From Morinoia aosen (Eukaryota > Arthropoda > Malacostraca > Amphipoda > Talitridae), in NCBI GenBank assembly GCA_030386875.1, contig CM059569.1, positions 49,019,842-49,083,841 on the forward strand: a DNA stretch of 64,000 nucleotides. Direction: 5' to 3'. Below, one piece after another: positions 1 to 50,300 of the stretch (position 1 is its first letter; every line of letters starts with the position of its first letter). The translations under genes and the position numbers were made by a program. Under the pieces are notes generated by a model, which saw only the letters and a list, made by a program, of their open reading frames with translations, was not told the origin of the DNA and made no database searches.

Positions 1-744
1 ATTTAAGCTCCATTCTTCGATGCATATCTGTCAAGGCCTTTCGTGTGCGTAGAATATCCTTTTCGTTATAAGTATAAGTGTTTTGACAAGGACTTAGTTT
101 TTATGGAACTATTCAAACTTGTATTTCAATGCCTCACCCTCACGTGCCTTGGCAATGTTGCTCGTCGTAATGAACGTTAAAAACATTCTACACATCATCG
201 TAAAACATTAGTTTTAACGAGACTGGTGAAATTATCTTATGAACTAAACTCACTCTTCCATAATGTTAAAAAATATTTACCCTTTAACGCTCAAATTTTT
301 GAACTCATATTATCGTCATGACAATTACCGGCATTAGACTGTTACTGACATCAGGTGCATGGTCACTGGTATCAGGAGGAGAATGTCGGTGGTGAAGAGG
401 AGATTGGAGGACCAATTTATGTGGAAATACGATAAATTGAGGCTATATTTCAAAAATGACTTTGGGGCGTTTTTGGGTCAATTGATCAATTTTGCATTAA
501 AACTGTGCACTCTTGATTTGAAACAGTTTTTGAATGTTTTTCACAAACAAGCTGAGTTTGCTATGAAAAGGGGATGTTTATTGCTTTTTCAGTCGCAAAT
601 GCCCTTGTACCACAGACTTGCATCGCAATTATCATGTACTTGATAGGTAAAAGTGAAAAAATAACTTAGGTGTGTGACGAGGTCCAAAAATATACTATGT
701 AATAGATATTCTTTGTGTATCGATCAGACCACGTCATATTTTAG
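1..744. other. Sequence upstream of the first visible GMC exon
   Basis: AT-rich, probably intronic. The only exon-like piece is 592-643, bounded by a good acceptor (pyrimidine run then CAG) and a GTAAAA donor. Its phase would fit the exon starting at 745, giving a D-R-G-K-V-I junction. The encoded residues do not resemble the conserved GMC segment expected there, so I do not include it in the gene. Confidence 0.35.
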
Positions 745-3700
745 GGGAAAAGTCATTGGCGGATCCAGCACCATCAACACAATGATCTTCCACCGCGGGA
801 ACTCAAAGGACTACGACCATTGGGCAGAACTCGGCAACGAGGGCTGGGACTATCAGACGGTACTCAAGTACTTCAAGAAGTTAGAAAATTACAGAGGGCC
901 CCTCACTCCGAGCGATGGTAAGACATTTGCTAATGTATTCCTTATGTGATGGAAATTAAGATACTTTTATCTGATGCAGCCTACAAGATGCGATTTTGAA
1001 ACTCGTTAAAATACACAGTGAGCGTTTACAGAGTGCAGTACTACCTTAGAAGTAAACACAATCCATTCTAAAAAAAAGTGGTCGACATCTGAACTGGTCG
1101 ACTTCCAAACGAAGTTTTTAGCGGTTCAAAGCGCAAATTAATCAAATCTACATGAAAATGAAATAACGTATGACGTATTTAAAGCCTACGGAGTAAAATA
1201 TCTTCATTCAGATTGGATATTTCAAAATGAAAGATTGAGCTCAGCATATAAATCTCAGACAAAAATAGTATAATTTTGAGGCGATTGAAGGAAGGAGCAG
1301 AAGCCACTTTTATTTTTCAAATTCAAAAGTTTTGAGTTTGTAAAATCGCGCTGAACTTATTTTTTACTGTGCCTTTCGTGGTTGCCCCGTCAGTGCCGTA
1401 CCGCGGCAGCGAGGGCCCCCTCAGCGTAGAGCGAGTGCGCTGGACGCCGCCGGTTGGCGAGCTGCTCGTCGAGGCGGGCAGGGAAGTGGGACTCCACGAA
1501 ATAGACTACAACGCTGGCAAGTCCGTTGGTGAGGGCGTTTCCATTACGTGGTAACTTCAAGCCTTGTTACTGTATAAGAATCTTTGGCAATCACTGTGGG
1601 ATTTTGAGCCTCTCCAGGAAATGGATTACAAGGCTGGCGAGTCCGTTGTTGAGTGCGGTTCCATTACGTGGTAACTTCAAGCCTTGTTACTGTATAAGAA
1701 TCATTGACAATCACTGTGGGATTTTGAGCCACTCCAGGAAATGGATTACAAGGCTGGCGAGTCCGTTGTTGAGTGCGGTTCCATTACGTGGTAACTTCAA
1801 GCCTTGTTACTGTATAAGAATCATTGACAATCACTGTGGGATTTTGAGCCACTCCAGGAAATGGATTGCAAGGCTGGCGAGTCCGTTGTTGAGTGCGGTT
1901 CCATTACGTGGTAACTTCAAGCCTTGTTACTGTATAAGAATCATTGACAATCACTGTGGGATTTTGAGCCACTCCAGGAAATGGATTACAAGGCTGGCGA
2001 GTCCGTTGTTGAGTGCGGTTCCATTACGTGGTAACTTCAAGCCTAGTAACTGTATAAGAATCATTGGCAATGACTGTGAGATTGTGAGCCACTCCAGGAA
2101 ATAGATTACAAGGCTGGCGAGTCCGTTGGTGAATGTTTTATCTTCCCTTGGAGATTCCAAATCACATACCAGGATCAAAATTATCTTATCTTATTTATTT
2201 TCACCTTATAATACTCTTGGTGTGTTTATATATTTGTTTGGTGTCCGCTTCTTTCGTCTCTCTGTCATGCTTTTAAGGATGGTTAATGACCGTATCTGTG
2301 GTGCGAGTTTTAGCATTGCGCAAGATGAGGAATATTTTTATCGCACGGACTAATTAAGATTGGATATATTTGTTTTTCATTCACATCTGGACAATTCATT
2401 CAAAGAAAATATTCAGTCCCGTTATTTTTAACTCGCCGTGTACAGTTGTTTTAAATAATCACGTCAAGACTTAGTTAAATTTAGTTAAATGATAAAATTC
2501 ATCGTAATTGTCAGTTACGAGGGGCTGCAACAACTGTAACTCCAAACTTTGATGGTTGCAAACAACAAAGGGATAATTAACTTACGTGACAACTAAGTTA
2601 GCAGAATTCAGTACACAGCAATTTCACTTGAAAAGCGTCGATATAGCATTCTCATAACGTCGATTAACATATTGTTCAAATTGAAGTTTCAGCCCTTCTA
2701 CTTAGTGAAATTTATTTTGATAAGTATGAGGAAAAGTTTGTTCGGTAGAGCGAACTTATTTTAATTAGTTGCTTTATTGATTTGACGTAGTGGTAAGTTT
2801 CTTGAGAGTAAGGCATCTACTGGTTATCATTTTTCTCCGACTTTCGGAGCTTCTATTACTAGATTGTCCGCACTCTGACCTCCAGGTAGCGCCTTTTATC
2901 AGGTGTCGATGAGAAACGGCGAAAGAGTGACGTCAGCTGACGCTTTCTTGAAGCCCAACCTACATCGTCGGAATCTTAAACTTCAAATCAATTCTCAAGT
3001 AACCGAAGTAAGATATTGTAAGCGTTGTGTTTTCACGGCAATATGGTGCTTTTTAGAAGAACCTTCCTCTCCGCTAGAAATGTATTTTAACCAAAACCAG
3101 GAGCGTTTCCACGACTCTAAAATATGATTAGTATACAAAAACAAAATTAGTGGCGAAGACGCTCATGCAGGTAGTTGCATGTCCGAAAGATACCCATGTC
3201 TCATTTGACATCACATGATCATTTGGTGAAGGATAGACGTAGGTTTACTTTATCACAAATTTAAATTGCTAAATGATAGTCTAAATTGGTTATTGCTGAA
3301 AAGCGATACTGACGGGGAGTACATTGACAAGGAAAAGCACACTCGAAATTCTCTCTCCTCACACGTTTTGTGCTTGGGAGTCTAGCCTTCCCCAGAAGTC
3401 AGAGAAGTGACATGAATGTAGATCAAGGAAGAAAGTATTAATTAAATTCTAATCGACAAATAACTACAAGCGTAGTACGTGTGTATCATAATATTCAAAA
3501 TGCTGCTCGTGTGTAGAATGGAATTAAGGAAACATTGCCTGTATAATAGAGCGTATGAGTTTAAAGACACCGGTTGAATTTAAGTTATACGACTTATGCA
3601 TTTTGTTGGGATCTGAATGAGAGTTGTTTAACTCACCAACCATCACGTTCACAGATCATCTTCAAGAACGAGAACAGAGCTATTGGCGTCAAATACTTCC

Positions 3701-6700
3701 ACAACAACAAAGTAAGTCAAAGCTTTGGATCCAGAAAAAAATGTATATGGGTTAATTACTTTTTTGCAGGCGCATGTAGAAAGCTTTTTCTAATTATATT
3801 CTTCTGAGAATTGCCTCAGTGTTTAAAAAATTACATTTTTCTGCGATTGGATCTTTGTCTTACGCAACAGTCAACCTTATTTCGACTAGAGCCTGATTCC
3901 GATATTGAATTTAAGCTGATCATGAACAGCGCGTTGACTAACTCAATGTCAACATCATTTCAAGGTTTTGAAGGATCAGACATAAAAGTTTCTACCCTCT
4001 ATTTTTCAGGTGAAACGCGCTTTCGCGCAGAAGGAGGTGATTCTAAGCACAGGAGCCGTCGACAGCCCCAAGCTCCTTATGCTTTCCGGCATCGGACCCA
4101 AGAAACACCTTGAGGAACATAAGGTAATACCTATTTTCCATCCAATTTAACTTGCTTATGGACGCTGAATTTCACAGTGATTCCCAAAATGGGAGTCTTG
4201 TTTTTGGACTAGAGGGCTGGAAAGGGGTCCATAGGTCATAGAATTTTGCGCTTTACACGCTCAACAAGTTTGAGCGCGCTGAGGCACCGAGAAGAAAGAA
4301 AATGCTCCTACCAGTGCAATTCCGTTTATGTAGCTTTTTGACATCCCACCCAACGGCGACCAGTTCGAGTCTCGGAATGTGGTGAAAATTTCTATTTAAT
4401 TTTTTTCATGGGCTTTAGCGCTAGTATTTTGTAACACCTTCCACGGGGTGGGGGTTCGCCTGCTGCAAGTAATGAAATTTTCCCAATTTTGCCCTCCAGA
4501 TTGAGGTGCGGGCGGATGTGCCCGGAGTCGGTCAGAACCTTCAGGACCACCTCATGCTTACCGGCATGTTCTGGACAATTCGTCCCGAGTTATCTTCTTT
4601 TTTCTTCTCAAGATTCGACATCGAGGCTCAGAAAGAATATTTCGAAAAAAGAAAAGGTGAGTCACGTGATACTGTAGAGGTTATTTGACTTGTTGATTTG
4701 AGTGGAAAATCTAGGAAGAATGATGGCTGTTGTAAGCCGTATACACTATAAAGGCAGGTATTCAAACAATACGTGAAATGGATCTATAGCTTAGCATTTT
4801 TACTGCATGAAACATGGAGCGAAGAATTTTAATTCATGCACTTGCTTAAACAGCAAGTTATTGAATAGCAATCTTTATCTACGAATTATGAACAAGACTG
4901 ATTTCTGTGTCATTTAATCTAACAAATAAAATACAAATTGTAAAAAACTAAATTGCTTATCATTTTGACGAGACAATTGCTTCAAGGAAATCCACAGCCG
5001 AAGGCAGCCCCAGCAACACTGTTATCATCACATGATATAAATTTCATCCTATCATTCAGAAAGGAACTTTTATGAACGGGTACAATCTTGTAAAATAAAA
5101 TAACTCATTTATTTCTGCGTTGCAGCTGCACTGGGTTACCAGCTATTTGTTTAGTTCAAAATATCATTCTATTTGTAAGCCAATGTGAGTAAACCCGCAG
5201 GAAATCGTGAAAAACGCTTTGAAACTAAACAACATGTATAAAAAATTGACCGATGATGGCGACAAAGATCTCAAACAATTATTAACTGAACAAACTGTTC
5301 ATCACTGCCAATTTACCCGAAATAAAAGAAACTTCATGTTTCCTTATTGTTCAAAAGCTCAGTCACAACACAGTAGCTTCTTCATTGGAACTAAGACTTG
5401 GAACTCAATCCCTGCGGAGATCCACGAAAGAAATTCTCATAATTCTTTCAAAATAAACCTTGAATCCTTTTTCCTATCGGAATATTAATCATATAAAATA
5501 ACCAAGTCAAATCTTTTTTCCGAAATGACTCATCCTGATAGGGCAATTTTATATGGTTAATGTCAACGATGTTCAGTCTGTTCTCAAGTCGTTTCTAGAA
5601 TATGCTTTTAACATCTACCCCATATAAACCACTTTGTAGATTAAGCATCGTATCTTCAATGAACTAATTCTTTGATCAGTCTATTGCATTACTAGGTTAA
5701 GTGAATTAAGTTAAGCATAATTGTACTCCTTAGAATAGCGTTGGTGGTAGGAGGCCCTAGAAGTCACTGAATTTATTCGGGCCCCTAGATAGCTGTACTC
5801 AAATTTGACAAATTGCACTAGATTTAAGAAATAATCTACTTCTGTATAACTTGTAGTAAATAAATTGTTTAAACATAGCAAATGGGTGAATTTTGAAAAT
5901 TGCATTTATTTTAATTAATTTTTTATATATAGTAGTCGTAAAAATAGTAACGAGACAATTGTTCTTGAGCAGCCGCCTCCGTTGGACAACTGCCTTCGTT
6001 AAACTTTTCTCCCCGGACAATTGCCCTCTAGATCGCTTCGTGTAATTAAACTAATTGAAGTTTTTTTGCCCGCTAGAAATATTTGATGCCACAACTAAAG
6101 CGAAATTTGATTCTAAAAACCTAGTACTAAACTCTTGGGGCTTCTATATGACTATATTTAAAGATTTCGTTGAAAAAAATGCAACATAAAGAAGAAAGAT
6201 TTTAAGTTCGGTTAGGTCGGGTTGCGCTGCGTCAAGTTATGTTGGGCAAGATTAACTCATGTTAGATAAGGTAAGACTAAGCAAGGTTAGGTTAAGTGAT
6301 GTTTTTTTACTTCCTGTTAATTTGGTTGTCGTATTACGTACAGATGAAACGAAAATTTATAAGCAATTGGACGGAAGCAATTGTCCGGGAGGCAATTATT
6401 GTCGCACGGAGCAATAATTATTGTCGGTAGGGGGAGGGGCAGTTGTCCTCCAAGGAGTAGTTCTAGAACCAAAAAAATATCCGCCAAAATTTGTAGTGAA
6501 AAATTTCTTAAGTAATGATTGGTCACTACTGAGCATAGTTTTTAAAGAATCAAGAATGCAATTTCCATGTCACCAAACACAAACGCGATAAAACAGGCTG
6601 ATTTTTACATTGGACTGTTAATTGTTGACTGGAGTCCTGTTTGAGATCATATTTATCTCGCAGGTCCCTTCGCTACACCCATTGGAACGTGCGCGATGTA

Positions 6701-9700
6701 TTCGATCAATACGGGGAGTTCAAACGAATCCAACATTCCCGACTTTCACATATCTTTCGCTAATTTGCCTGTTGGTTCAGATTATGGTGTCTTCACTACC
6801 ACATTATACAACGATCCTGTGAGTATCCTATGATTCAGTTTTTCAAATATTTTTTACATCGAGTAGGTTACCTTTTTTCTCTTCAAAAAACTTGAGCAGT
6901 TGGTAAGAAAATCTACTCCTTAACAAGGAAATATTTTACAAGTGACAATAGCCCGCTACAGGATATTCTTCAAACGGAATACGTGACTCTTCCAACTCGA
7001 AGGTGCATGACACTCGTAACTGCCATACTGGATAAAATAACTGCATTACTCTCACAGGTAGCTGAACTGTTCGACTGCTCCATTCTGATGGTTGGAGACG
7101 AAATGTTAATTACAGTCTTCATAAAAAACTAAGTATATCTGACACCCTTGAGTGATCAGAAGAGGGATCAGAGTTACCAATGTTTCTAGATTTGTGCGGG
7201 TTCATCAGAAAGACTCTAGGCTCGCCTTCACACTTCCACACAAGAACAGGTGCACGTTTTGAAAATTTTCTGCACTGATCTTGTCCACGGTTGAGGGGAC
7301 ACAACTAAAGACAGCAAAACAAAGGTCCAAACATTACTTACTTCCCCTTTGTGTTTCGCGTACCATGTTCACTATTGAGACGAACCAAAGCAGTTAACGG
7401 AAGCCTAATCAGTTATCTTTAATTACTAGGAAGACAACTAATGGTCACCATTTGATGCTAGAATTTACCTTAATAGTGTTAATTATGTAAACTCGACTCT
7501 CATTATACTTTAATTGACTCGCTGAGTAGATGATGAAAGAGATTAAATTTAAGCTTAAAGCTAACGTGAATTTTATAATTTTACTTCGTTTTTAAGTCAT
7601 TAAAATACTTCATGCTATTTCCCTTATTTTAACTTTTCTCAAAGACTTTTGAAAACTGGATAATCTTATTTACCAGCTCTCAGTATGCTCTATTTTCTTC
7701 CGAATGATGGTGTTGCAGCCGTGCAGTTCTCTTGTTCCTCAGGTGAAGCAAAACTTCTTCAAGCAAGCCGCCGGTAAAGACGGCTATTCATTATATCCAT
7801 CGTTAGAGAGACCAAAAAGCCGTGGATCGGTAACGCTTCGTTCGAACAATCCATTCGAAACACCGGTGATAGATCCGAACTGCCTCAGTCATCCCGACGA
7901 TGTTGAAGCCTTCGTCGAAGGTAAGCAAAATTTAACCAACTTTGGGAGATCGGATACTGCATCATCCTGCCATCAGTTTTTCATTCTTTGGTTTTTAAGG
8001 AGCAGCTCTTTGATTCATTTGAGCAGCTCTCTGTTGCGGAAAATGCGCATTTGTAATGCTTTTGCTGCCGTTGTCGATCAATATCTTAATTAGGGCCATT
8101 GATTCTTGCCCAAGCGTTTAGTTTTGTGAGCTGAATCCTCACACGTACATGACGTGTGCAACACCCCAGGTAACCTAGCCTAACGAGAACCCAAAAACCA
8201 TCCACCATTCGGTGTAATACTGGTCATCAGTAAAACAATGGAAAGTTTGTTGGAAGCCTGACTAATGAAACATACACGAACTCAAAGTCTGATTGCAGAC
8301 ACAGCGCGGATTTCAAGAAAAAACGTTTTCTGCCTCAAACATCTCTGCAACTTCTTGGGAATTATCAAACTGAACTTGAAACGGTACAAAATCTGCACTC
8401 CTCATGTGTCATAACTTTCAGAATACCTTAGATAAAGTTCCTCGCCTGAGGCTAATGGAAAGGGGAAGCCATAGTGTCGGAGGAAACTGCTCACAGTGGA
8501 GACGTAATAGACCACTAGTCGCACGCAAAACGTGGCTTTAAACGCCCAATTAATTACGTAACTGTATGAAAGTAACAACAGGAGGCGCCTAAAGAGGCGC
8601 TCTGTGCCACCTTCATGATATACTTAAACAACCTTAACTTCGAAATCAACTATTTCACGTAGGATGCTAAATTCTGCCCAGGCGTTCATCGTGTGCGACA
8701 GAGTTATTATTCAACTTGACCACAAATACTATTCACGAGTACGCTTTGATGGAAAACTTGTGCTGTTCGTCCTTTTATTTCTGTACCAACTTGATGGAGT
8801 CGACATTTTGGGTTGATGTCCTCACCTGCGTTGCAGGAGCCAAGGCTACATTCAGAATTGGAAACGCAGAGACCTTCCAAAAGAAGCTCGGAGCCAAACC
8901 CAATACAGTTGTAAGTAGACAGGGAGTAGCTTTGCTAGGCACGTTCGTGTTTGTGGGTGCAGAACGGTTCATTCTTACAGCAATGGTTAACGAAAGATTC
9001 TAGTTCTTATAAGGGACACGAAGGTTAACCCATGTGATGGTGAGTTAGTAGAATTGGGAACTTACCCATAAATAATGCTCTTAGACATAGGATACTCAAA
9101 CTTGATTTTCCTTCTGAAGACAATGAAACTTTTTTAATCACAGAATTAATACTCAGGCACATCTCACATTTTTTAGCGCCTTTACGTGTTTAAGATTGGC
9201 AAATTACCACACTTCGATTTAAGAAACATTTGTCCCACGATGTTAACATTGTTTAATTTTTTCACCAAATTCAGCCACTGCCAGGGTGCGAACACTTCGA
9301 ATACCTCTCGGACGACTACTGGAGGTGCTACGTCAGGGCAATGACGGAATCGCTGTCTCACATCTCGGGCACCTGCAAGATGGCTCCACCCTGGGATCCT
9401 AATGGGGTCGTTTCGCCGAGATTAAAGTGAGTATTTTATGTAATCAGGCACTGATACTGAGCGAGTATAGGGCAAACGGAGGTTGTATTTTCACGATTTT
9501 AACTCATTTTTGTTGCAAGGTAACACGTTGGTGAAAAATCTGGTATATAAATACGAACTCATGCGTGGACATATAAAATATATGTTTTATACAGCCTTCC
9601 CTTTCTTTCCAGGGTCCGGGGCGTGGAAACCTTACGAGTTATCGACGCTTCCATCATGCCTGTCCTCACTTCGGGTAATGCAATGCAGGACTAAAGAACA

Positions 9701-13198: not shown

Positions 13199-13226
13199 TG
13201 GAGGGGCCAATTTGAAATCTGCCTTT

Positions 13227-14340
13227 GTGGTGCAATACTGCGTGCCTAAACAAGACAAGCCAGAGCTCACTGCAAGGTGTGGTGCAATACTGCGTGACTA
13301 GACAAGAAAAGCCAGAGCTCACTGCAAGGTGTGGTGCAATACTGCGTGACTAGACAAGACGAGCCAGAGCTCACTGCAAGGTGTGGTGCAATACTGCATG
13401 CCTAAACAAGACAAGCCAGAGCTCACTGCAGGGTGTGGTGCAATACTGCGTGACTAAACAAGACGAGCCAGAGCTCACTGCAGGGTGTGGTGCAATACTG
13501 CGTGACTAGACAAGACGAGCCAGAGCTCACTGCAAGGTGCGGTGCAATACTGCGTGACTAGACAAGACGAGCCAGATCCCACTGCAAGGTGGGGTGCAAT
13601 ACTGCGTGACTAGACAAGACGAGCCAGAGCTCACTGCAAGGTGTGGTGCAATACTGCGTGACTAGACAAGACGAGCCAGAGCCCACTGCAAGGTGGGGTG
13701 CAATACTGCGTGACTAGACAAGACGAGCCAGAGCCCACTGCAAGGTGGGGTGCAATACTGCGTGACTAGACAAGACGAGCCAGAGCCCACTGCAAGGTGG
13801 GGTGCAATACTGCGTGACTAGACAAGACGAGCCAGAGCTCACTGCAAGGTGTGGTGCAATACTGCGTGACTAGACAAGACGAGCCAGAGCTCACTGCAAG
13901 GTGTGGTGCAATACTGCGTGACTAGACAAGACGAGCCAGAGCTCACTGCAAGGTGCGGTGCAATACTGCGTGACTAGACAAGACGAGCCAGAGCCCACTG
14001 CAAGGTGGGGTGCAATACTGCGTGACTAGACAAGACGAGCCAGAGCTCACTGCAAGGTGCGGTGCAATACTGCGTGACTAGACAAGACGAGCCAGAGCCC
14101 ACTGCAAGGTGTGGTGCAATACTGCGTGACTAGACAAGACGAGCCAGAGCTCACTGCAAGGTGGGGTGCAATACTGCGTGACTAGACAAGACGAGCCAGA
14201 GCTCGCTGCAAGGTGCGGTGCAATACTGCGTGACTAGACAAGACGAGCCAGAGCTCACTGCAAGGTGTGGTGCAATACTGCGTGACTAAACAAGACAAGC
14301 CAGAGCCCACTGCATGGTGTGGTGCTCTATTGCGTGAATA
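13227..14340. repeat. 52-bp satellite array, about 21 units
   Basis: The word GGTGCAATACTG recurs every 52 bases from 13229 to 14321 (1092 bp, 21 periods). Units are nearly identical; variation is concentrated at a few positions (ctcac/cccac, gtgtgg/gtgggg/gtgcgg, gactaga/gcctaaa). The outer units at both ends share variants such as ACAAGCC in place of ACGAGCC. Reading frames over the array are open by chance. There is no unique spacer between units, so it is not CRISPR-like. Confidence 0.97.
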
Positions 14341-15670
14341 AAACAAAGAGTAAGCAGTAAAGTGGAGTAAAGAGAAATGCTAGCTCCACAACCCTGTCTA
14401 GAATGAGTTATTATTTGAGGATAGCACGTATTGCTCATCAACGATGTTACTGACATTTCAACTGTATTTTAAAAGTTGGGCCACGTAAACGGAGCTGAGG
14501 AGGACAGAACTTTCCAGAAAGCTCTGTAAAACTATTTCTGCAGAAATATTTTCATGATTTTTCCATTAAAGCCACATTGCTAAAATATTGGTATTAGAAT
14601 TTAAACCTTCTTCTAACATTTTCTAATTTATTTCACTTCGTTTCAATTTTACTATTTAAACGCTCAGCGAGGCCAAGTTCATAAAAGACGTCACTGAACA
14701 TCTACTATATTATGACCATTCGCTCACATGGGAAGCGTGCATGATGTTGAATTTAGCATGAAGACCTTAAACTAAAAATTATGAGTTCACTTCTATCTGA
14801 GAACTTAGTTATTTTTTCGAATGCTATGACCATGAAGCTTCATTTAGAGTGAAACAATAGAGAATTGTGAAGGCTGTATCAGGTTCGCTAGGCAATTTGG
14901 AGATGGGGAAGTGCTCTTGCAACGCAAAGTTAATGGAATTAAAGAGAGGAGAATTTTTCCTCCGGGTATGCAACGTAGTGCATTTTATCTGCATTTTATC
15001 ATCGATCATTGAACCTGGTAAATTTCATTTTTGCATGACTGAGCAGATCGTCAAAAATAAAGCATGATCTATTCAGTAAAGAAATATGAATAACAAAAAG
15101 AATCGTTTATTCCTATGTATACGTACTGTCATGACTACAATTGTTTGCAAACGTCGCTGCGACATTGATACTTATAATTATCTTCAAGTGGCAGCGAGAA
15201 CTACTGGCATCTTTTATTTCATAGTAATTAATTAGAATTAATTAGAAAATATAATTAGAACTTCACTGTGTTCTGTAATATCTAAAAAGAGGAATTAAGC
15301 TTGGTATAAATCAAATTAAATACATCCAAAATCGCCCACAAAGGCTTTGAGATGCACTCGGCTACAGTACTTTGGAGAAGCCCAGCAACTTCTTCTTTTG
15401 TTTTTTATTACCTTTCGTAGGGCAGTTATGATATTTCATAATACAACAGCAATATTTATTTCAAGTTATTTATTTATTCTCAAATTATTCATTTATCCAG
15501 AAGCTTTTCATTTATTCATAAGCTATTTATTTATCGACAAGTTATTTACGTCCAATTAACTGGCAGCTTATCATTCATATCTAATGAAGAGATGCAAATG
15601 CGTAGAGGTATAAATAAAAATGTCATGGCTGCTATCTTGTCAATTGATAATCACGTCACAAGCCCCTCAC
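14341..15670. other. Non-coding stretch between satellite and GMC-like exon
   Basis: AT-rich sequence with no recognisable gene. At about 15460-15545 there is a short degenerate repeat of TTATTTATT-type words. I searched by eye for the next exons of a minus-strand GMC gene (GxGSAG and RGK.IGGSS motifs) and found none. Confidence 0.4.
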
Positions 15671-15797
15671 CAACAATGAAGTCGACGATAATGTCTTCCG
15701 GCGTCACGCTCGTACGGAACACCGGCGCTGCCACCATCATTCCTCCCAGCACCGTCGCCAGCTTTTTAATGAAGTTCAAGATCGAAAAGCCTGCCAT
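15671..15797 (-). CDS. Orphan first exon of a GMC-like oxidoreductase
   Basis: On the minus strand an ATG at 15797 opens 42 codons plus one base, ending at a strong GTGAGG donor (15670-15665). The peptide starts MAGFSILNFIKKLATVLGG, is hydrophobic enough for a signal or anchor segment, and ends in EDIIVDFIV with phase 1. That matches the segment just before the FAD-binding GxGSAG motif of insect GMC enzymes (typically D-F-I-V-V-G-G-G-S-A-G). An in-frame stop lies just upstream, supporting this ATG. No downstream exon was found between here and the GMC gene ending at 10584, which is on the opposite strand. It may be an orphan exon, a broken paralogue, or the first exon of the neighbouring gene in inverted position. 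Confidence 0.42.
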
Positions 15798-19134: not shown

Positions 19135-20628
19135 TACAGGGTGTTTCAAAAATACACGGCATAATTTCAGGTATGTATTTCCCACATGTAGACAATCAAA
19201 ATAGTTCATTACAACATATGTCCGGAAATGCTTCATTTCCGAGTTATGGCCTTCACAACATTGAAATTCACCGGAACGTTTTTCTTTCCGCAGGTCGTTG
19301 CCATTACAGAAGATGTTCAAAATGACCACCTCCTGCTTGAATACAGACCTCACATCGATGTCTCATTGACCTGCGAACACGATCCCACACTCCAGGAATG
19401 TTGCGTATGTCCTCAGAGCGTGCCACAATTCGATTCCGAAGGGATTCCAAATCAGGCACCGGAGACGAATAAACCAATGATTTTAAATGGCCCCACAAGT
19501 AGAAATCGAGAGGGTTCAGATCAGGTGAGCGTGGAGGCCAAGCAATTGGGCCACCTCTACCTATCCATCGATCAGGAAATCTTCGATCCAAGTACCGGCG
19601 AGCCGTACGACTGAAGTGTGCAGGAGCGCCGTCATGCAAGAAGTGAGCGTGCTGACGATCGATCAGTGGAGTGTCGTCATAAACATCAGGTATGATGTTT
19701 TCCAGGAAGTTTGTGTACGCCTGCCCCGTAAGTCTGTTTACAAGTACATGGGGTCCAACTAACCGATCACCAATGATACCGGCCCACATGTTGAGGGAGA
19801 ACCGCACCTGGTGATGAGATACAACAGTTGCATTTGGGTTTTCATACGCCCATACATGCTGATTGTGGAGATTTGTTATGCCATCTCGTGTGAACTGTGC
19901 TTCATCTGTAAATAATACTAAGGCAGGAAAGTTCGGATTTGCAGCACATTGCTGCAAGAACCACTGACAGTACCTAACTCGTGCAGGGTAATCTGCTGGT
20001 GACAGCGCCTGTACACGTTGCAAATGGTAAGGATACAATTGATACTCTTTCAGCAGTCTCCAGACAGTCGTATGGGGAACATTCACTTGCAACGCTAACC
20101 TTCGTGTGCTGATAGAAGGAGTTCTGTTCACAATCTCCAGAATCTCCTCCTGTTCTTCTGGAGTTGTAGATCTTGGTCGTCCCCTTCCCAATCCAGGAGA
20201 GTCAAATTTTCCATACTCGCACAGACGCTGATGGAGACTTACAAATGTCTTCCGATCTGGACATTGTCGCTGTGGGTACCTCTCCTGGTACAAACGACGA
20301 GCCAGCGCAGCATTGCCGTCTGCCTTACCGTAGATCAAGTGCATCTCTGCCAGCTCCTGATTTGTGTACATGACACACAGTCGAACGCCAAACACAACAC
20401 TGAATTTAACCTTCGCCTAGGAATGATCTGTCAGAGTGCCCTCTTAATGTGTCCTTTGACGGCAACGACCTGCGGAAAGAAAAACGTTCCGGTGAATTTC
20501 AATGTTGTGAAGGCCATAACTCGGAAATGAAGCATTTCCGGACATATGTTGTAATGAACTATTTTGATTGTCTACATGTGGGAAATACATACCTGAAATT
20601 ATGCCGTGTATTTTTGAAACACCCTGTA
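19135..20628 (-). mobile_element. Tc1/mariner-superfamily element, apparently intact
   Basis: A 1,494-bp element bounded by TA dinucleotides (19133-19134 and 20629-20630), the usual Tc1/mariner target duplication. The terminal inverted repeats are 168 bp each (19135-19302 and 20461-20628) and, read base by base, are identical. Termini are TACAGGGTGTTTC. A single uninterrupted transposase frame lies between them on the minus strand, its stop two bases inside the left repeat. Perfect repeats and an intact frame point to a very recent insertion that may still be mobile. Confidence 0.97.
19304..20395 (-). CDS. Tc1/mariner-type transposase, DD(36)D
   Basis: 363-residue DDE/D transposase. N-terminal half: helix-turn-helix DNA-binding region (QELAEMHLIYGKADGN, then RTPSISTRRLALQ with TTVWRLLKE) around a GRGRPRS linker. 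C-terminal half: catalytic aspartates in LFTDEAQF, FLHDGAPAHF and RSPDLNPLDFYLWGHLK. I count 36 residues between the second and third Asp. C-terminus is GGGHFEHLL, as in a widespread insect transposase family. The second Met (20371, MYTNQELAEMH) is the more likely start because family members begin there. The stop lies just inside the left inverted repeat, so the gene fills the element. No stops or frameshifts. Confidence 0.95.
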   Translation of the reverse strand: MFGVRLCVMYTNQELAEMHLIYGKADGNAALARRLYQERYPQRQCPDRKTFVSLHQRLCEYGKFDSPGLGRGRPRSTTPEEQEEILEIVNRTPSISTRRLALQVNVPHTTVWRLLKEYQLYPYHLQRVQALSPADYPARVRYCQWFLQQCAANPNFPALVLFTDEAQFTRDGITNLHNQHVWAYENPNATVVSHHQVRFSLNMWAGIIGDRLVGPHVLVNRLTGQAYTNFLENIIPDVYDDTPLIDRQHAHFLHDGAPAHFSRTARRYLDRRFPDRWIGRGGPIAWPPRSPDLNPLDFYLWGHLKSLVYSSPVPDLESLRNRIVARSEDIRNIPGVWDRVRRSMRHRCEVCIQAGGGHFEHLL

Positions 20629-26043: not shown

Positions 26044-29000
26044 TCACCACGGCTGATCGTCATAGTTAGCCTGGCACAGATATCCATGCTCCTCGGTGTC
26101 GGGGTAGCAGTAGAACGCAGGTGTGCCTCCTCCGAAAAGCCCTGATTTACCAACTCCGACCGGCGAGCGTGTATTGTCGTTGTTCCGTGGTTCGTCTGCA
26201 GCGAGAACTCCGCTTTGAAGCAATGTTCCGTCTCCCCATACGAGGGTACCGTTAGGCAGCTTACTCAGATCTACGTAGTAGTCTACGTCTGAGAAAAAAA
26301 GGACGAAAAGTACACTAATACCTATACGAAAGTGCACGAGTGATATAATGTAACCCTTTCATGTGACACTTGAGAGTACTTAGCGTTCATTATGTTTAAC
26401 AACCCATCAATCTATCTAAGTCAGTGATATTAGTTTTCTCCTCTGCTTTTAAGACTAGGTCATTTTCCTAGGACTAGAGACTCACTCACATACTACGTGT
26501 GCGTGTCTCTACTTCCACTAAATTGTCTTCAGCGTGGCAAGCACTTGGACCATCAAAGTTTAGACAAGCTAGACATTGTTTTGATCCTATTCTTGCGTTG
26601 ACGGTATTTTTATCAAAGAAAGTGCAGCTCTTCTGGTAATCATAACAAATGAAAAAGATGGGCGGAAAAAAACGGGAAGGAATTTTTCAAATAACTGGGC
26701 TGACCCACTCTCTTTGTTCAGGTTAAAAAGTTTGGAGACCTTTTTTACGAACGATTTTTATAACGGCACAGGAAGAGAAGATGTTTACTCTTCAACCCCT
26801 AGTGTAAAAATTTCTATTATTATGATATGTCTGTACAATTAAAAAGCACATTGATGTTGTGTATCATATAATAATTCACTTTCCACCGGGAATTTTTTTC
26901 ACTCTGCATTTTGAACAGGACAGTAAATGGTTCACACCAGGGAAAAATGACAATTACTCCCAACGGTTACATTCGAATATATATTGTATCATTTACACAT
27001 GTAAGAAATAAGCACCGTGGCTTCATGAATTTTCAAAAAGCAATTTATACTCTTTTGAACATTTTTTTTCGAAATATGTGTAGAGTTTTTAGTTTTATAG
27101 CTTTTTCCAAGTTAACCAGCACTATTTTTACATTTGTAACGATTGGAAAATAGAGGCTCGTCAACTTTTCTTCGCAAGGGAAGAACACTACGAGGCTGCA
27201 AGTATGTATTCGCATTCACAACCTTACACACGGAAAGAGAGCGTTCACACCACTAGGCTGCTACGCAAGTTAATTTCCATTCTGTATAATATTTATCATT
27301 AGCGTATTTTGCTTACCTTGCCTTTTTTAATGTGTTCCAAAATGGATTAATTCTCAGTTTGTAAAATAAAAGCATAAATTTTTTGTTAACTTACGCTCGT
27401 GTATGCCCCTGAAAATGTCTGCCGTTTGCTTGGTCTTCGCTTGGGCGAGACGAAAGCCTGGTCTGGTGAGGCACTCCGCTCGGGCAGCAGTCATGGTGTA
27501 CCCTTCTTGATTGTGGTAGTAGTAGTACAGCCCGTCTTTTTCCTGAATCGTGTCCTCCGGCAGTCCTGCAAAAAGGAAGTTCAATTCAATTACAGTTCAG
27601 GTGAGGCTGTTCCGAGTGCCGTTCAGTGAATGTTTTCTCTCATTTTACGAAGCAGCACCCCAATTATTATTTTTCACGCCATTTAAAATAAAGTCTGACG
27701 GCTTATCTTTTGCTACTGTTTACTTCAATCCTCATTCTATTCATGATATTTGATATTTTAACAGTGCACGTCATACTGAGAACTGCAATATGTTTTCTGT
27801 TGGGTATAGGAGAAAAATTCCAAGCACAATACCCCACTCTACCCAGGTGTCTGAAATGGGTACCGGTTTTGACCGGGGGAAAGCGTCATGGCGTCCTGGC
27901 GTTAGTTATAAGGCATTTGAAAATCCAATGTACAAGGTGATATGTATCAGGCTTGATTGGAAATAAAGCATCCGTAGATGCCTTCATTATTATTTCCTGT
28001 TGGACTAATGTACATCATTCGGTAAACTTATGTCGCCTGGTGATTGGACCTCCGCAGAGTTTCTCCCTTCCTTCCATTTCAGGGCAGCGGCCAGGGACAG
28101 TATAGGGTCAAGGCACAGGAGCAAAAGAAGATAAAACTTTCGACTGATTAGAGATGCTAAAGGTTTTGAAATTCCCTCTCCGACGACCTGTAGACGTTTT
28201 TAAATTCTCCCTATTAATGCTCCTCATATGGTACGTTTGTCTAAGGACGTCTTATATTAAGAAATTTTTGAAAGTCAATATGCTGTCATGTATCTCGTGT
28301 GTAAATGGTTTTTATAAATGGTTTTTCCTTCTTTATTTCTTTCTCTGCTGAACTGTAGACGTTTTGAAATTCTCCCTCTGCCGACCAATCGACGTTTCGA
28401 AATTCTCTCTTACGAGATATAGAAAACATAGCCTAACGCTGCGACAATTCTGCTGTAATTTGTAAATCGTAAAACAGGTTATATTGTTTGGTTAAGAAAG
28501 TATTAAGAAAAGCAAATAGTTTGACCATACTCATCTAGGGTTGTTTCAAATACACGTAATCATTATGTGAAATGCTATTCTGACTAAAGTGGGATAGTTT
28601 TGTTATACGCTTTTCAAATATTGCGAGTTAGAATCAATGGAAATAAGTTTTTTTTAGGATTGGTTTACTTTTTCTCAATCATATTTATTATTGCAACAAA
28701 ATTACTTAATCATGAGAGCAAAGATGGCGGCAAACACCTTCGTTTCTGCAAACACTATGTGTTCGGAACGAATGATTTTTTCTAATTTCATTTCACAATT
28801 TTCCAATGGGCTCAAATTTAGATTCAACGACAATTTTAATCAGTAGAGAACATCAACATTAATGAGTGCAAGTGACGCATATTCGACGATGGTCGTTGGT
28901 TCTGATAAATTCCCACAACGATGATTGAACTCATGTTTTTTACTCTGGTGAAAAAATGGGTTTTCAGTCACGCGAATACTTACTGGACGAATGAATTTCC

Positions 29001-34745: not shown

Positions 34746-35026
34746 AACATCGGCATCTTTGGGATGCTTTATTTCCAATCAAGCCTGATACATATCATCT
34801 TAAGCATTGGTTTTTCAAATGTCTTATAACTAACCCTATGTATAGGACACCATGACGGTTCTCCCGTAAAGCCGGTACCCATTTCCGACACCTGGGTTGA
34901 GTGGGGTATTGTGCTTGAGCTTTCCCTTACACCCAAAGGGGAAAATCTCCGCGCCAGCGCCAGGATACGAACCCTCGTCTCCAACATACAAGGCTGATCC
35001 CTTAACCACTGTGCCACGGAGAGCAC
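34746..35026 (-). mobile_element. tRNA-derived SINE, copy 1
   Basis: On the minus strand the head reads TGGCACAGTGGTTAAGGGAT (A-box region), followed about 30 bases on by GGTTCGTATCC (B-box-like), as in tRNA-derived pol III SINEs. A unique body follows, ending in TTGATTGGAAATAAAGCATC and CATCTTTGGG-type complement. Length about 280 bp. It is immediately followed by an A-rich spacer and a second copy in the same orientation. The body carries an open frame, but this is incidental. Confidence 0.9.
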
Positions 35027-35035
35027 AAAAAAAAA

Positions 35036-35316
35036 CAAACATCGGCATCTTTGGGATACTTTATTTCCAATCAAGCCTGATACAAATGATCTTAAGCATT
35101 AGTTTTTCAAATGTCTTATAACTAACACTATATATAGGACACCATGACGGTTCCCCCGTAAAGCCGGTACCCATTTCCGACACCTGGGTCGAGTGGGGTA
35201 TTGTGCTTGAGCTTTCCCTTATACCCAACGGGGAAAATCGCAGTGCCAGCGCCGGGATACGAACCCGCGACTCCAACATACAAGTCCGATCCCTTAACCG
35301 CCGTGCCACCGCATGC
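35036..35316 (-). mobile_element. tRNA-derived SINE, copy 2
   Basis: Same family and orientation as the copy ending at 35026, separated by about 10 bases of A-rich sequence. The two copies differ at scattered positions (for example in the head and in the TATAGGACACC region), so this is two insertions or an old tandem duplication rather than a very recent one. Confidence 0.9.
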
Positions 35317-38767: not shown

Positions 38768-41700
38768 ATGGAAAGCTGTCAGAGCAAAAATGAAAAATGT
38801 TGTGAATTGTCCAATAGTGTTGTAAGGTTTGGATGTATAAATGTGCGTGGATGGAATGCAGGAAAGTTAAATGACCTTGTAGCAGAATTTGAGAATGGAG
38901 ATTTGGATTGTGTTGGTGTAGTAGAGACCCAAATGCGTGATAGAGTCAGTTTAAAGTGTAAGGAGAGTAAGTACTACATGATTGGAAAAGGGCGTGTAAG
39001 TTGGAAAAAAAGAGGTGGTGGAGTTGGTCTCATTGTAAAAAATGCTCTAAATTGGAAATTAGAAGAAATTCCTGTTGGAAATGAACCTGAGAGTGAAGAT
39101 CTGTTAGTAATAAAGTGTGAAAGAATGCATGCCAGAGAATGTGTTATTGTGGTTGTATGCTATATGACAACTGATGGTATTTTAGCTCATCAAGAGAATG
39201 TAAAAAAGTATGAAATATTAAGAAGAATTGTGCAAGAGCATTGCAGATGCCCTCTGATTTTAATGGGTGATATGAATGGCCATGTTGGTATACTGGGTGA
39301 GCCTGTGAATGCAAATGGACAAAAATTGATTGATTTCTGTGATGAGAATGAACTTGAGAACCTAAATGTAACAATAGGAAATGGCTTGCATACATGGCAA
39401 AGCAGGGAATGTAAAACTGCAATTGACTATATGATAGTGAATAGTAGAGCAAGAGAGTGTGTCAAAGAAATGTTTGTAGATGAAGATGATTTTGATATTG
39501 ATAGTGACCATAAAATGCTTGTACTAGAATATAATTGGGGTGGAAAGGAGCCGATGCAGAAGGCCAGCAGAGTAAGAGAAAATTGGCGTATTAAAATGGC
39601 AAACTGGGAAGAATTTAGAAATGAATTGAGTAGATGTAACTGGAACAGGTGTGGAAATGTAAATGACCTAAATAAGGAGATTGCAAGAACCTTGTATGAT
39701 GTGGCAGAGCAAAAGATCGGTAGAATGAAATGCAGGAAAAGTACAGGGAATGCTAGGTGGTTTACGAGTGAGATAAAGGAAGAACGAACGAGAAGGAAGA
39801 CTTTAAATAAAAAACAACGCAGTATGAGGAAAATGTATGAAAGACGCAGAATTACTGAGGATGAATGGCAGAGTGTATGGAATGAGTACAAGGACCAGCA
39901 GAAGAAAGTAAAGAGAATGATCAATGAGGCTAGGGTTAAAGAAGAGAGACACCAAGTTGAAAATCTAAGAAAGAAAGGTCTAGATGGAATAAAAGATTGG
40001 TATAGGTTTATACAAGGTAATGATAGAGGTAGTGAAGTTCAAGTTGATGAATTAGTAGTCAATGGTTGCAGTGTACAAGATAGGATGCAAATGGTGAAAG
40101 CAGTTGAAGAATACTGGGAGGACATTGGTGGAATGAATGAGCAGGTTACAGATGATGAACCAATAAATTTTCTGATAGATGAACATGAACTGCAAATGGA
40201 AGACGAAATCACTTGTGAAGAGATTGTAAGTTTTTTGAAGAAAGTGAAAAATGGAAAGGCATGTGGCCCTGATAAGCTACCATATGAGTTCTATAAATGT
40301 GGAGGAGAGAGTGTAGTCAGTATGTTGAAATGTTTATTTGATGAGATATGGAAGAGTGAAAGAGTACCGGATGACTGGAACAAGTGTAATGTAGTTCTGT
40401 TGCATAAGGGTGGACATAAGAGTATGAAAGAACTTAAAAATTACAGACCAATTGCACTGGGTGACACCGTATGTAAGATCTTTTGTGGTATTTTGAATGA
40501 GAGAATGAAAAATTTAGTTGAGGAATTAGGAGTCCTGGGAGAAGAACAGAATGGTTTTAGGCAAGATAGACGGGGGGAGGATAATCTGTTTGTAGTGAGT
40601 GAAATAATTGAGCGAATGAAGAAGGATAACAAGAAGGTATATTTAGCATTCCTGGATATTGAAAAGGCGTATGACAGAGTGGATCGGGTTAGGCTGTTTG
40701 AAATTTTGAGAAAAGTTGGTTTTAGCAGAAAAATAGTGAACATTGTACAGAGTCTGTATGAGAACACAAGTGCTATCTACAGGTTAGGAAATTTGGAAAC
40801 AGGGCAAGTGAGGAGTGTTAGAGGAGTGAGACAGGGCTGTACTCTGTCCCCCCTGTTGTTTGGATTGTACACAGAAGAATTAGCAGTTCGACTGAGAGGG
40901 AGTGGTTTAGGACTGAAAGTTGGTAATGAGAGACTGAGCTGTTTGTTGTATGCTGATGATGTGGTTGTGGTTAGTGAATGTGGTCATGAACTACAAAGGA
41001 TGCTTGACATTGTGAATGGATATAGTACAGATTTCAAGATGAACTTTGGTGCCGATAAAAGTAAGGTCATGGTTATAAATAGTGATGAGACTGATAGAGA
41101 CAGACTGTGGAATATTGGAGAAATCAGAATAGGTAGAACAAAAGAATACAAATATCTAGGTTGTATGATGAGTGAAGATGGATGTACTAGAACTAAAGGT
41201 GAGAAAGTGGCTAAAGCAATGCAGTGGAGTGGACGGTTAGGTAGTGTGGCCAGATACAGAGCAAACAAGTACGAATGTGTGAGAGGAATGTGGAAGTATG
41301 TTGCTGTACCTAGTGTCATGTATGGTATGAGTGCTCTTGCCTGGAATGGAAGTGATCTTGAAAAGCTGGATGTGATACAAAATAAGGTAGGACGTGTAGC
41401 ATTGGGTGCTCCGAAATGGACAGCTACAGAAGCCATTAGAGGTGACCTAGGGTGGAGCCTATTTTCAGAAAGAATGATGAAAGCTGTGCTGAATTATAAG
41501 GTGAGAATTGAAAGAATGCAGAATAGCAGGTGGGTAAGGCGAATCTTTGAATGGAATCTGAGTGTAAGCTATTGGGAGAAAGTATGTTGGGGGCATGCAA
41601 GGAAACTCAGTATGCAAAAGATTATTCATGTTAGAATTGGGAGACCTGTGGATGACTGGAGTTTAATAAATGTAGGAGGTGTAGGGCCTGAGTGGGACCG

Positions 41701-42184
41701 CAAGAGGTGGAAGAAAGAGATTGAGAGACGAACAAAAGAGTATGGATTGAATAAGTGGAAGCTTAGCATGATGCGCAAGCCTACACTTAACTGGTATATG
41801 AAAAAGAAAGCACCTAAGTTTGAGCTGTTCTATGATGGTAGTTTTGGAAGTCAACTCTTGTTTGCTGTGAGATGTAAGTCATTGAGTGTGAACAGACGTA
41901 CATGGAGATGGAATGAGAATAATAACAGATTATGTCAGCAGTGTAATAGTGGAGTAGAGGAAACAATTGAGCATTTAGTGCTGGAATGTAGTAAGTATGA
42001 GCAAGAGAGAGAGAGTTTTATGAATGTGGTGTCTGAGCAGTATGGAGAGAATGAGTGGAATGCCAGATGTGCTGAAGATGATTGCGGTATGAGCTGTCTT
42101 GCTGGATTGGATCAGGAGTGCAATTTGAGTATCATCGAAGCTATGAAATTGTTTCTTGTGCGTGCCTGGAGTAAGAGACAGTGA
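38768..42184 (+). CDS. LINE ORF2: APE endonuclease and reverse transcriptase
   Basis: 1,138 residues, no interruption. Endonuclease domain (about 20-255): INVRGWN, catalytic E53 (VVETQM), D168/N170 in LMGDMNGH, IDYMIVNS, and SDH ending at H248. Reverse transcriptase (about 480-800): GKACGPDKLPYEFYK, KNYRPIAL, D630 in AFLDIEKAYDRVDR, GVRQGCTLSPLLFGLY and the catalytic YADD at 728-731. C-terminus: C1056-x2-C1059-x9-H1069-x4-C1074 knuckle as in many insect LINEs. The start codon abuts the ORF1 stop in the same frame (TGAATG), so translation probably depends on reinitiation or stop read-through. Confidence 0.96.
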   Translation: MESCQSKNEKCCELSNSVVRFGCINVRGWNAGKLNDLVAEFENGDLDCVGVVETQMRDRVSLKCKESKYYMIGKGRVSWKKRGGGVGLIVKNALNWKLEEIPVGNEPESEDLLVIKCERMHARECVIVVVCYMTTDGILAHQENVKKYEILRRIVQEHCRCPLILMGDMNGHVGILGEPVNANGQKLIDFCDENELENLNVTIGNGLHTWQSRECKTAIDYMIVNSRARECVKEMFVDEDDFDIDSDHKMLVLEYNWGGKEPMQKASRVRENWRIKMANWEEFRNELSRCNWNRCGNVNDLNKEIARTLYDVAEQKIGRMKCRKSTGNARWFTSEIKEERTRRKTLNKKQRSMRKMYERRRITEDEWQSVWNEYKDQQKKVKRMINEARVKEERHQVENLRKKGLDGIKDWYRFIQGNDRGSEVQVDELVVNGCSVQDRMQMVKAVEEYWEDIGGMNEQVTDDEPINFLIDEHELQMEDEITCEEIVSFLKKVKNGKACGPDKLPYEFYKCGGESVVSMLKCLFDEIWKSERVPDDWNKCNVVLLHKGGHKSMKELKNYRPIALGDTVCKIFCGILNERMKNLVEELGVLGEEQNGFRQDRRGEDNLFVVSEIIERMKKDNKKVYLAFLDIEKAYDRVDRVRLFEILRKVGFSRKIVNIVQSLYENTSAIYRLGNLETGQVRSVRGVRQGCTLSPLLFGLYTEELAVRLRGSGLGLKVGNERLSCLLYADDVVVVSECGHELQRMLDIVNGYSTDFKMNFGADKSKVMVINSDETDRDRLWNIGEIRIGRTKEYKYLGCMMSEDGCTRTKGEKVAKAMQWSGRLGSVARYRANKYECVRGMWKYVAVPSVMYGMSALAWNGSDLEKLDVIQNKVGRVALGAPKWTATEAIRGDLGWSLFSERMMKAVLNYKVRIERMQNSRWVRRIFEWNLSVSYWEKVCWGHARKLSMQKIIHVRIGRPVDDWSLINVGGVGPEWDRKRWKKEIERRTKEYGLNKWKLSMMRKPTLNWYMKKKAPKFELFYDGSFGSQLLFAVRCKSLSVNRRTWRWNENNNRLCQQCNSGVEETIEHLVLECSKYEQERESFMNVVSEQYGENEWNARCAEDDCGMSCLAGLDQECNLSIIEAMKLFLVRAWSKRQ

Positions 42185-47300: not shown

Positions 47301-50300
47301 AGAAATAGAGTCATACTCTAATTATTATGACCTCAGTAAATCTTTTGGGAATGGTTCCGATTAAGACCTGCAAAACTTACAAAAAATTCCACCAGCCAGA
47401 GCCAATGGTAACCATCACCTCAGGATCTGAACTTGGCCTTTCTCGACCCAACCTGGTTGGACTCTGCCTTGAACACCTCATGATCCGAATTTTGACCAGA
47501 CCGTGGCGTTGACCAGTCGTCGGTCCTATTTGACCATTCCACGTTTTAACCTCCAGCGCCATCTATTGAATTGGACGTGAAACTGAAACGGGCCTTAATC
47601 GGAACTGAAGCCAAAATATTTAAAATTAGGTTATGTATAAACTAAACATGTCCAACAAGATGCCCATCTGTTGCATTACAAGTGTTCAAATGCCAGTAAA
47701 ATATTGCTAGACCCAATGAGACACACTAAAAGTTGGATAAATCCTTACAGAGGCTTCAGCAGTTCTCCCAATGAGGTCTTATTTGAAGTGAACTGGTGTT
47801 TTGTAGACCTAACTCTTCAAATGACCCCAGAAGTAGATATATTGGGGTGTTATGTCAGGATATTGTAGTGGCCACATTTCAAATTTCAAAGCCTTGTAGC
47901 TCTAATGCAGAATTTTTGATGACTCAGTTGTTGAGTGAAAAGTGTTTATTTCATATGTACCAACCTTATATTGAAGTTTGTCCAACAAAGCTCTGGTCAC
48001 ACTGTATACTAGTACATCCCTCTTCATTTGAAATAAGAAAGAAGGCAAAATGAAAGAAAGGCCATAAGAAATGAATAATAAATCTCTTGATAGTTGATGA
48101 GGCTGAATGCACACAGCCCATCAAAAATGTATAATTATGTTTGACGAATCACATGACACACATTCTTATTTCCTAAGAATTCATGTGATTTAATTCCTAC
48201 TCAAATCTGATAGATTAATATGCTGGAAATTGTGGAGTTGATGAAGAGTGTATCACAGATACGCTCATCACACACTTTTGGGCTGGGTTCAGACAGACAG
48301 AGAGACAGACAGACAGACAAACGCGGCTCTTATTATAGTATAGATTAGTGTTCGCTACCTCTGTGTTTCATTTTCCTTTGTGCCCTCAAAATCTATTTGA
48401 CTATCTGTATTCTGTTTTTCGAAGAGATAAATTAAGAGAGACTGCATTGTGTGTACACAGTTTGGAAACCAGTTATAGTCTGCCACTAAGTAGTTACAAT
48501 TTTAGCCTGTGATGCTGTGAACTGTTGCACTCTCATTGGAGTGTTGATTGTAAGTTGGGGTCTGCTACAAATGCTTATGTTTGGAGATATACAGTGTTCA
48601 GTCATGAGTTAGAGCCATTTCTCAAAACACATACTTCCTGTCTCCTTCAGAGAAGTAAAATGTTGAAGCATCCAAGTGCAGATAAATGATAGGTAAAACT
48701 GTAAATTTTACTGAATGAAAATTTTGATGAAGAAGTATTTCATTTTTTCATGTTTGGTAAAACAATTTACCTGCAAGCTACCAGAGTAAACTGTGTCCTT
48801 TGTAAAAACAAGTCATTGTTTAATTTATTTATATAAGACTTTGATTCTTAAGGCAAATCCAGGTAATTACATATGGGAAAATGCTCTTCAAATTTGAAGT
48901 CTAACAACTCATTTTCTGATCTATATACTTAATAGCAGATCTCTAAATTTGTGCGAGTCCGTTTGGAAAATTGGCTGAGTCTACATGGTCGAGTGAGGTA
49001 TTAAATTGAAGCCACTGGTGTCTATATTTGCAGAAAACTATTTATTTAAATTTTTTTTAATTTTTTTTTTTTTTATTTTGATTTTTTTCTTCTTTATTTC
49101 TTTATTTTTTGATTATTTACTTTTTTTTTAATTTTTATTTATTTTTTATTTATTTATTTTTTTTCCATTTTATTTTTTATATTTTTTTTTATTTTTTTTA
49201 TTTTTTTCTATTTTTTATTTTTTTTATTTTTCTTATTTTTTATTTTTATTTTATTTTTTTAATTTTTTTATTTTTAGGCAAGTCGGACAACCCGATACTC
49301 GGGTTGAACCGGCTTAAGCTTAGCCGGTTACCGGAGGTAACCGGCTAGTACAACTATATTATCATTCTTGTTAAAGTCTCCAAATTTTTTGAACAGGCCC
49401 TAACTTTTATGATGAAGCATAATTTTATCAATTGTGTGAAGCAGATTATTAATAAATTTTTGATTTTACCACTAACAGCAATCTTTCTGTAGGGTAAAGT
49501 GGTAATGATATAGGCAGGCATGATATAAGTGTTGGTCTTAGCTATATGTTTTTGTAACTACAGCAGGTGGTCTTGGTGGAGGGTTCCAACTGGGCCAACC
49601 AGCTGCACAGACCAGCTCTTCAACTGGTTTAGGTGACTTCAGCTTTGGCAGCAGCAGCACTGCTAGCAACCCTCTTCTTGGAGGTGAGTGATCTTCTGGG
49701 TCTTCAAAGGCTGGAATTTGTTCATGGCAGGCTTACTCTTGTAATGACTCCTACACTGGGATTTTGGTTTACCCCTTATTCTGTTACTTTAACAAATCAC
49801 CCGAAAATATTAATGTGTCCACAATTTTGTGATTGTGAAACTTTCATTGAATAAGGTGTGGTGAAATAGAATAAATAAGACATATATTTGGCAAAATCAC
49901 ATCAAATTTTATTTTTGGGCTAAATTCCGTGAAGCTATAACATTTTAAAGAAGGGTAAACATTCTGCGGGGCTACAAACATTGGAATGTGTTGTGTGTGT
50001 CTTAGCGGCGATCGAGGGTCGGCTCTTTGGACAGTGTTCTCAAGTGCTTGAAACAGGATGTCATACATCAAACTGCCACACGGCGGTTGGCGCTTCGTCC
50101 AAACTTCTACGGTTCAGGCGTCTACAAAACACAAACACACAATCTTGAACACAAAACACATCTCAGGCCAACACAACACAAGACACACACACAACACACA
50201 TGCGTTGCGTGGGAACGCCCGGACGAGTCAGCTTCGAAGGGGAGCACATCCCGTCGGCCAATCAGCGATCTGTAAGGGATCAGGCCAGTGGGTGTGTCAG

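Follow-up and report, generated by a model that had tools for sequence, protein, structure and literature searches.

A probable mirage in a GMC oxidoreductase gene of Morinoia aosen: a 120-bp minisatellite across the exon 4 donor junction

The window considered here, by which we mean the whole analysed stretch of 64,000 nucleotides (C14:49019842-49083841), opens within a GMC oxidoreductase gene of Morinoia aosen. Exons 3-10 of this gene were located by peptide matching at 746-7922 on the forward strand, exons 1 and 2 lying upstream of the window start in the adjoining sequence L043, and the Pfam entry PF00732 matches exons 3 and 7 (C14:49020557-49020760 and C14:49023854-49023949). The 1.99-Gb genome (29 contigs) contains 74 matches to PF00732, and vertebrates and Caenorhabditis elegans are described in PMC1891103 as having few GMC genes. 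Exon 4 (1394-1528, +) is in phase 1 at both ends and was defined by a peptide match to seven paralogs with an identical exon end, and exon 5 (2886-3007, +) by exon-by-exon peptide matching, which would place intron 4 at 1529-2885 (+). A duplicate of the gene (L003) lies 0.9 Mb away. No stop is found in either copy in the nine exons compared (exon 1 is not among them), and over these exons pN is 0.016 and pS 0.0375 (16 and 11 changes), for which reasons both copies are probably working genes.

The remainder of the window contains several repeats and open reading frames. There is an open 363-aa ORF at 19304-20395 (-), which we take to resemble a mariner-type transposase, and an open 1138-aa ORF at 38768-42184 (+), presumably akin to a LINE endonuclease/reverse transcriptase. 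Related copies of a further repeat, which we assume to be tRNA-derived and SINE-like from its appearance, occur at 27793-27994, 34752-34973 and 35044-35265 and again at L043:670-903. Identical 123-aa ORFs at 50058-50429 and 57692-58063, 7.6 kb apart and each with the same 51-bp tandem repeat behind it, are by their sequence a recent local duplication.

The end of exon 4 is the start of a tandem array (TRF: 1491-2132, period 120, 5.3 copies, 95% matches, score 1144) in which the 120-bp unit is made up of 38 exon bases, containing the last 12 codons of the exon, and 82 intron bases. A 24-bp piece of the unit occurs six times in the window at three or fewer mismatches, against a maximum of zero in 100 shuffles. 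Reading the array unit by unit bears out the preliminary description of this DNA, which had reported an array of exon-end codons and intron start in a GMC gene, with GT donors in the first and last units and TT in those between. Unit 1 (1491-1610) carries the authentic junction GTTG/GTGAGG (the slash marks the splice junction), with the exon end at 1528 and the GT at 1529-1530, and keeps the paralog states GAC and AAC. The four inner units all read GTTG/TTGAGT and comprise unit 2 (1611-1730), unit 3 (1731-1850), unit 4 (1851-1970), in which the peptide has C for Y relative to units 2, 3 and 5, and unit 5 (1971-2090), in which the spacer is more diverged. The last, partial unit (2091-2135; all units are on the + strand) has its exon-like end at 2128, reads GTTG/GTGAAT with the GT at 2129-2130, and then passes into diverged original intron.

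Units 2-4 are homogenised, with 1-2 mutual differences in 120 bases. The distance to them is 10-11 bases for unit 1 and 6-7 for unit 5 (10 and 6 when unit 3 is the reference), and the exception to this exclusion of the edge units is the exon part of the last unit, which is 1-2 of 37 bases from units 2-5 (36/37 identical to unit 3). In the duplicate gene there are 2.3 units, ordered GT-TT-GT, so that unit number varies between duplicate genes (5.3 vs 2.3) within one assembly, and the presence of a TT unit between GT units in both copies means that this state either predates their split or was shared by later conversion. Changes between units had also been described as falling mostly at third codon positions. 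This is true of 4 of the 5 codon-position differences between units 1 and 3, a thin basis of five differences only, and the first-position change (K/E) is private to the window locus. In the cleaner comparison offered by the duplicate locus, its units 1 and 2 differ at third positions only, four in all, but three of the four alter the amino acid (H/Q, I/M and N/K); there is thus no sign of coding selection on the copies, and the idea that third-position changes reflect such selection was rejected.

A whole-array search of the 1.99-Gb genome found two places among its best-scoring candidates, the window gene and its duplicate, and a search with the spacer only gave seven matches among the best-scoring candidates, all of them inside the two arrays; very common words were skipped in both searches. 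Dispersed satellite sequence, which the preliminary description had named as the finding that would undo its reading, was accordingly rejected, neither the whole array nor the spacer being found dispersed among these candidates. Seven GMC paralogs at C14:38.1-38.26 Mb have an exon 4 of identical end and phase, reading GA(T/A)GAA(A/G)TCGAC(T/C)ACAACGC, and the 120-bp junction array is absent from all seven. Unit 1 has the GAC and AAC of the paralogs whereas the later units have GAT and AAG, which identifies unit 1 as the conserved exon and the later units as derived.

The intron part of the unit was compared with the paralog intron-4 starts in register, over bases 7-40 from the last exon base and in five of the seven paralogs, L044 (in which the intron start is rearranged and contains a 24-bp array) and L046 (in which there is a small insertion) being omitted. 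Identities were 20-21/34 for unit 1, 20-22/34 for unit 3, 19-21/34 for the flank of the last unit (2134-2167) and 17-18/34 for the corresponding flank of the duplicate gene. No more than 6 of 5000 shuffles reached these values. None of 329 slid registers reached them, save for the last flank of the duplicate gene (0-3 registers), where 1-3 of the 329 equal or exceed the in-register value in four of the five paralogs. When spacers and flanks were instead aligned freely, by local alignment, with the paralog introns, 1 of 28 comparisons was better than its 60 shuffles, and with the unit-1 spacer the best alignment starts exactly at the donor in 12 of 14 cases. The in-register matches indicate that the ancestral intron start is present at each end of the array, which is what would be expected had the junction been duplicated in tandem. 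The proposal that the junction was duplicated in tandem and that a donor-dead unit then spread is therefore supported, by paralogs that lack the array and match both unit 1 and the last flank, by the near-identity of units 2-4, and by the finding that in the duplicate gene, too, a TT unit is flanked by GT units. The omitted L044 array is a different one, of 24 bp x 6.5, about 40 bases into intron 4 (L044:5409-5563).

The sequence ACTC at 2213-2216, two bases off the expected unit boundary, resembles ACTCC at 1491, a weak match that may represent the microhomology involved in the initial duplication. The history was more complex than one simple duplication, since the last exon-like copy is like the inner copies but its flank is identical to the unit-1 spacer at only 16/34 bases. 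That copy was either converted by inner units or joined to its flank by exchange between diverged gene copies. The second idea is strengthened by a step in divergence at the array. In a changepoint test with both arrays left out, divergence between the window gene and its duplicate was 4.1% to the left and 11.2% to the right of position 2141 (2-log-likelihood interval 1478-2162; LLR 49.8, where 200 permutations gave 8.0 at most), and at 4434 it shifts once more, to 0.5%. Window positions 1-8260 are thus a mosaic of blocks at about 4%, 11% and 0.5%, with one switch falling at the array, suggesting repeated gene conversion between the two copies, and the position of that divergence step indicates that the array has probably been used as a switch point in recombination between them.

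Two candidate donors had been proposed for exon 4. The distal GT at 2129 does exist, but it is not an alternative donor for the full-length protein, as the unspliced frame meets its first stop at 1552 and there are 12 in-frame stops between donors 1529 and 2129. Only donor 1529 yields the enzyme for this reason, and units 2 to last would be part of intron 4. On a matrix for which 51 exons were tried and 38 supplied a donor, the score of the authentic site is 6.4, against a paralog median of 9.9 and scores of 9.0 and 9.5 for cryptic GTs at 2076 and 2793, so that the spliceosome would be passing over both the distal GT and higher-scoring cryptic sites. The intact frames of the nine exons suggest that normal splicing of the window gene may be undisturbed. 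Use of the copies as in-frame alternative or mutually exclusive exons was considered and rejected, because each is an exon end only and in-frame stops are present in each of the five full units; were the CAG before a copy to serve as an acceptor, the copy would be entered in phase 0 and left in phase 1, a frame mismatch.

The same gene contains an acceptor array of 52 bp x 18.4 at the end of intron 1 (L043:6170-7126, on C14 shortly before the window begins). Each unit is a copy of the acceptor plus the start of exon 2 (CCTTGCAG/TGGGCTCTGG), and the copies run up to the real exon. The decoy AG is intact at 17 of the 18 decoy positions in the array; when the frame is followed through exon 2, 17 of the 18 run into a stop, and the nearest one causes a frameshift. 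The duplicate gene has 3.0 units of this array (L003:1058-1212), and one decoy there would add 37 residues in frame. Within the window, an inverted 52-bp array related to the 18.4-unit one, again of acceptor plus exon-2 start, occurs in a GMC gene fragment (13226-14346, -) that also has an exon-1 copy with a 95% identical peptide (15669-15797, -). Of 38 genome matches to the 52-bp unit, 33 are in four arrays of the two loci and five cover only paralog exon 2. Compared in register with paralog intron-1 ends, most of 35 pairs were not unusual, and the lowest shuffle count was 24/2000, at 16/39 bases; as this is not convincing, the origin proposed for the 52-bp array is drawn from its exon-start match and its position only.

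Altogether six separate junction duplications were found among 14 GMC gene copies, the two arrays of the window gene included. The others are an acceptor duplication at exon 3 of L044 (69 bp x 2, 44/69 identical, in frame and able to add 23 residues), a donor duplication at exon 2 of L053 (107 bp x 2, 34/36 in the best stretch), and, in the C9 gene L056, a donor array at exon 3 (74 bp x 3, with GT kept in the copies) and an acceptor duplication at exon 8 (116 bp x 2, 51/80, with the decoy AG lost). A 31-bp x 49.2 array also occurs in a GMC intron at L052:2648-4169, about 15 bases after the apparent exon-3 donor.

Whether exon edges are special was addressed by an automatic survey of the 14 gene copies, which are a non-random sample of one family, with several close relatives and several partial copies among them. 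Local duplications were present at 7/180 exon edges vs 263/2800 random intron points, with exon cores the least duplicated (78/7215 bases), and four of the seven edges come from the window gene and its duplicate, each contributing its two arrays. A count in nine copies gave 6/140 edges and 13/366 intron points, and five further copies gave 1/40 edges. One of the 6/140 is exon 1 of L050; it reflects a second, diverged copy of the exon-1 end with its donor, located within intron 1 about 1.2 kb beyond the exon, and not a junction array. Because the ends of peptide matches serve as edges, the counts failed to pick up the exon-3 donor array of L056, which was included on visual inspection. A junction-specific mechanism is thus not supported, edges being duplicated no more often than introns, and the simplest reading is of a brisk turnover of intronic minisatellites that occasionally takes in an exon edge, such a duplication being tolerated because the outermost copy keeps working.

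We interpret the 120-bp array, with a probability of roughly 0.87, as a mirage, that is, a minisatellite born by tandem duplication across the 5' splice junction of exon 4. A segment spanning that junction, of 38 exon and 82 intron bases, would have been duplicated in tandem, with splicing staying at the first, exon-attached donor (1529). Every later copy would then be intron and, for that reason, free to change. In one of them the donor would have passed from GT to TT, before the gene duplication or before a later conversion between the copies, and this donor-dead unit would have been multiplied by unequal exchange or slippage, giving four here vs one in the duplicate, with the edge units staying apart, as the unit states show. 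The array would then have become a switch point for recombination between the gene copies. On this sequence evidence the units look like harmless, fast-changing DNA inside an intron.

Other explanations have to be weighed against this one. The uniform TT of the inner units (4/4 here and 1/1 in the duplicate) might mean that expansion was permitted only to a donor-dead unit, intact decoy donors being selected against and the change from GT to TT a precondition. We think this unlikely, since one founding unit suffices to produce the same pattern without selection, and since decoy sites persist in other arrays of the family, as the 17/18 intact AGs of the acceptor array of the same gene and the GTs of the 74-bp donor array of the C9 gene demonstrate. 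A splicing switch, in which the distal or cryptic donors were used in some tissues to give a truncated or decaying transcript and so control the enzyme in the manner of a poison exon, could draw on the last-unit GT kept in both gene copies and on the cryptic sites that outscore a weak authentic donor; it is nevertheless improbable to a high degree, given that unit number differs between the copies (5.3 vs 2.3), that the inner donors are dead, and that seven paralogs do without the 120-bp array.

For two further candidates no supporting evidence was found. For a dispersed satellite or transposon that had inserted at the exon edge, its likeness to the exon only apparent, the unit and spacer would have to be elsewhere than in two duplicate genes (the result for the best-scoring candidates, with very common words skipped), and its exon and intron parts would not be expected to match the paralog exon end and, in register, the paralog junction; we regard it as scarcely credible. 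Equally negligible is a role of the unit copies as a structured RNA element, a candidate we rejected because a single unit is not predicted to fold any better than its shuffled versions (z 0.41, with 129/200 shuffles at least as stable). The mirage reading, by contrast with these, may also form part of a wider pattern, in which junction-spanning duplication recurs across the gene family at both types of splice site, the arrays act as exchange points, and selection on decoy sites decides which unit multiplies. This extension is unlikely; if true, mirages would generally, and still today, give rise to changes in splice sites and introns beyond the lancelets.

Exon-edge repeats of this kind are already known as the mirages of lancelets, whose genomes are of about 0.5 Gb and in which they were reportedly first described by Canestro in 2002, and the phenomenon is found here in an arthropod genome. 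In two papers on the lancelet genes Adh3, the globins BflGb6 and BflGb9, and TnC, mirages are minisatellite-like tandem copies across exon-intron boundaries, either 5' or 3', with units of about 10-160 bp that vary in number between haplotypes or assemblies, inner units that are homogenised and cluster edges that stand apart, and regular splicing seems undisturbed according to the authors (PMC3087553, PMC3902484). Similar repeats of 60 and 108 bp are described there for PGBD5 (PMC3902484), and mirages are suggested to be possibly a general phenomenon in cephalochordates (PMC3087553). The window array agrees with these in its units of exon end plus intron, its varying unit number and its homogenised inner units. 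It differs in its host genome, of 1.99 Gb with 74 PF00732 matches, and in that unit number here varies between duplicate genes rather than haplotypes. Among the matches listed in a search of open-licence papers (titles and abstract starts), none was a report of mirages in an arthropod. With six separate junction duplications among the 14 GMC copies surveyed in one genome, mirages would become a more widespread outcome of the turnover of minisatellites at exon edges. A natural test is also provided by the paired loci, both of how the spliceosome chooses among near-identical sites, one intron having 17 intact decoy acceptors, and of whether duplicate genes exchange sequence more readily where such arrays are present.

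Three other systems invite comparison. Variable minisatellites likewise occur where exons meet introns in recently duplicated human genes, within segmental duplications, and are reported, with transcript support, to create novel introns or to stay in exons (PMC2812944), whereas at the 120-bp array stops exclude in-frame inclusion. Intron gain by junction duplication shares with the window array a tandem duplication across an intron-exon boundary (PMC4974935), but no new intron is predicted here, the copies instead lengthening an existing one. Duplicated coding pieces within a GMC gene are also seen in GMCbeta4 of Anopheles gambiae, where alternative tandem exons, whole C-terminal ones, are predicted to join in frame (PMC1891103); in the window gene, by contrast, the repeated piece is the end of an exon only, and it carries stops.
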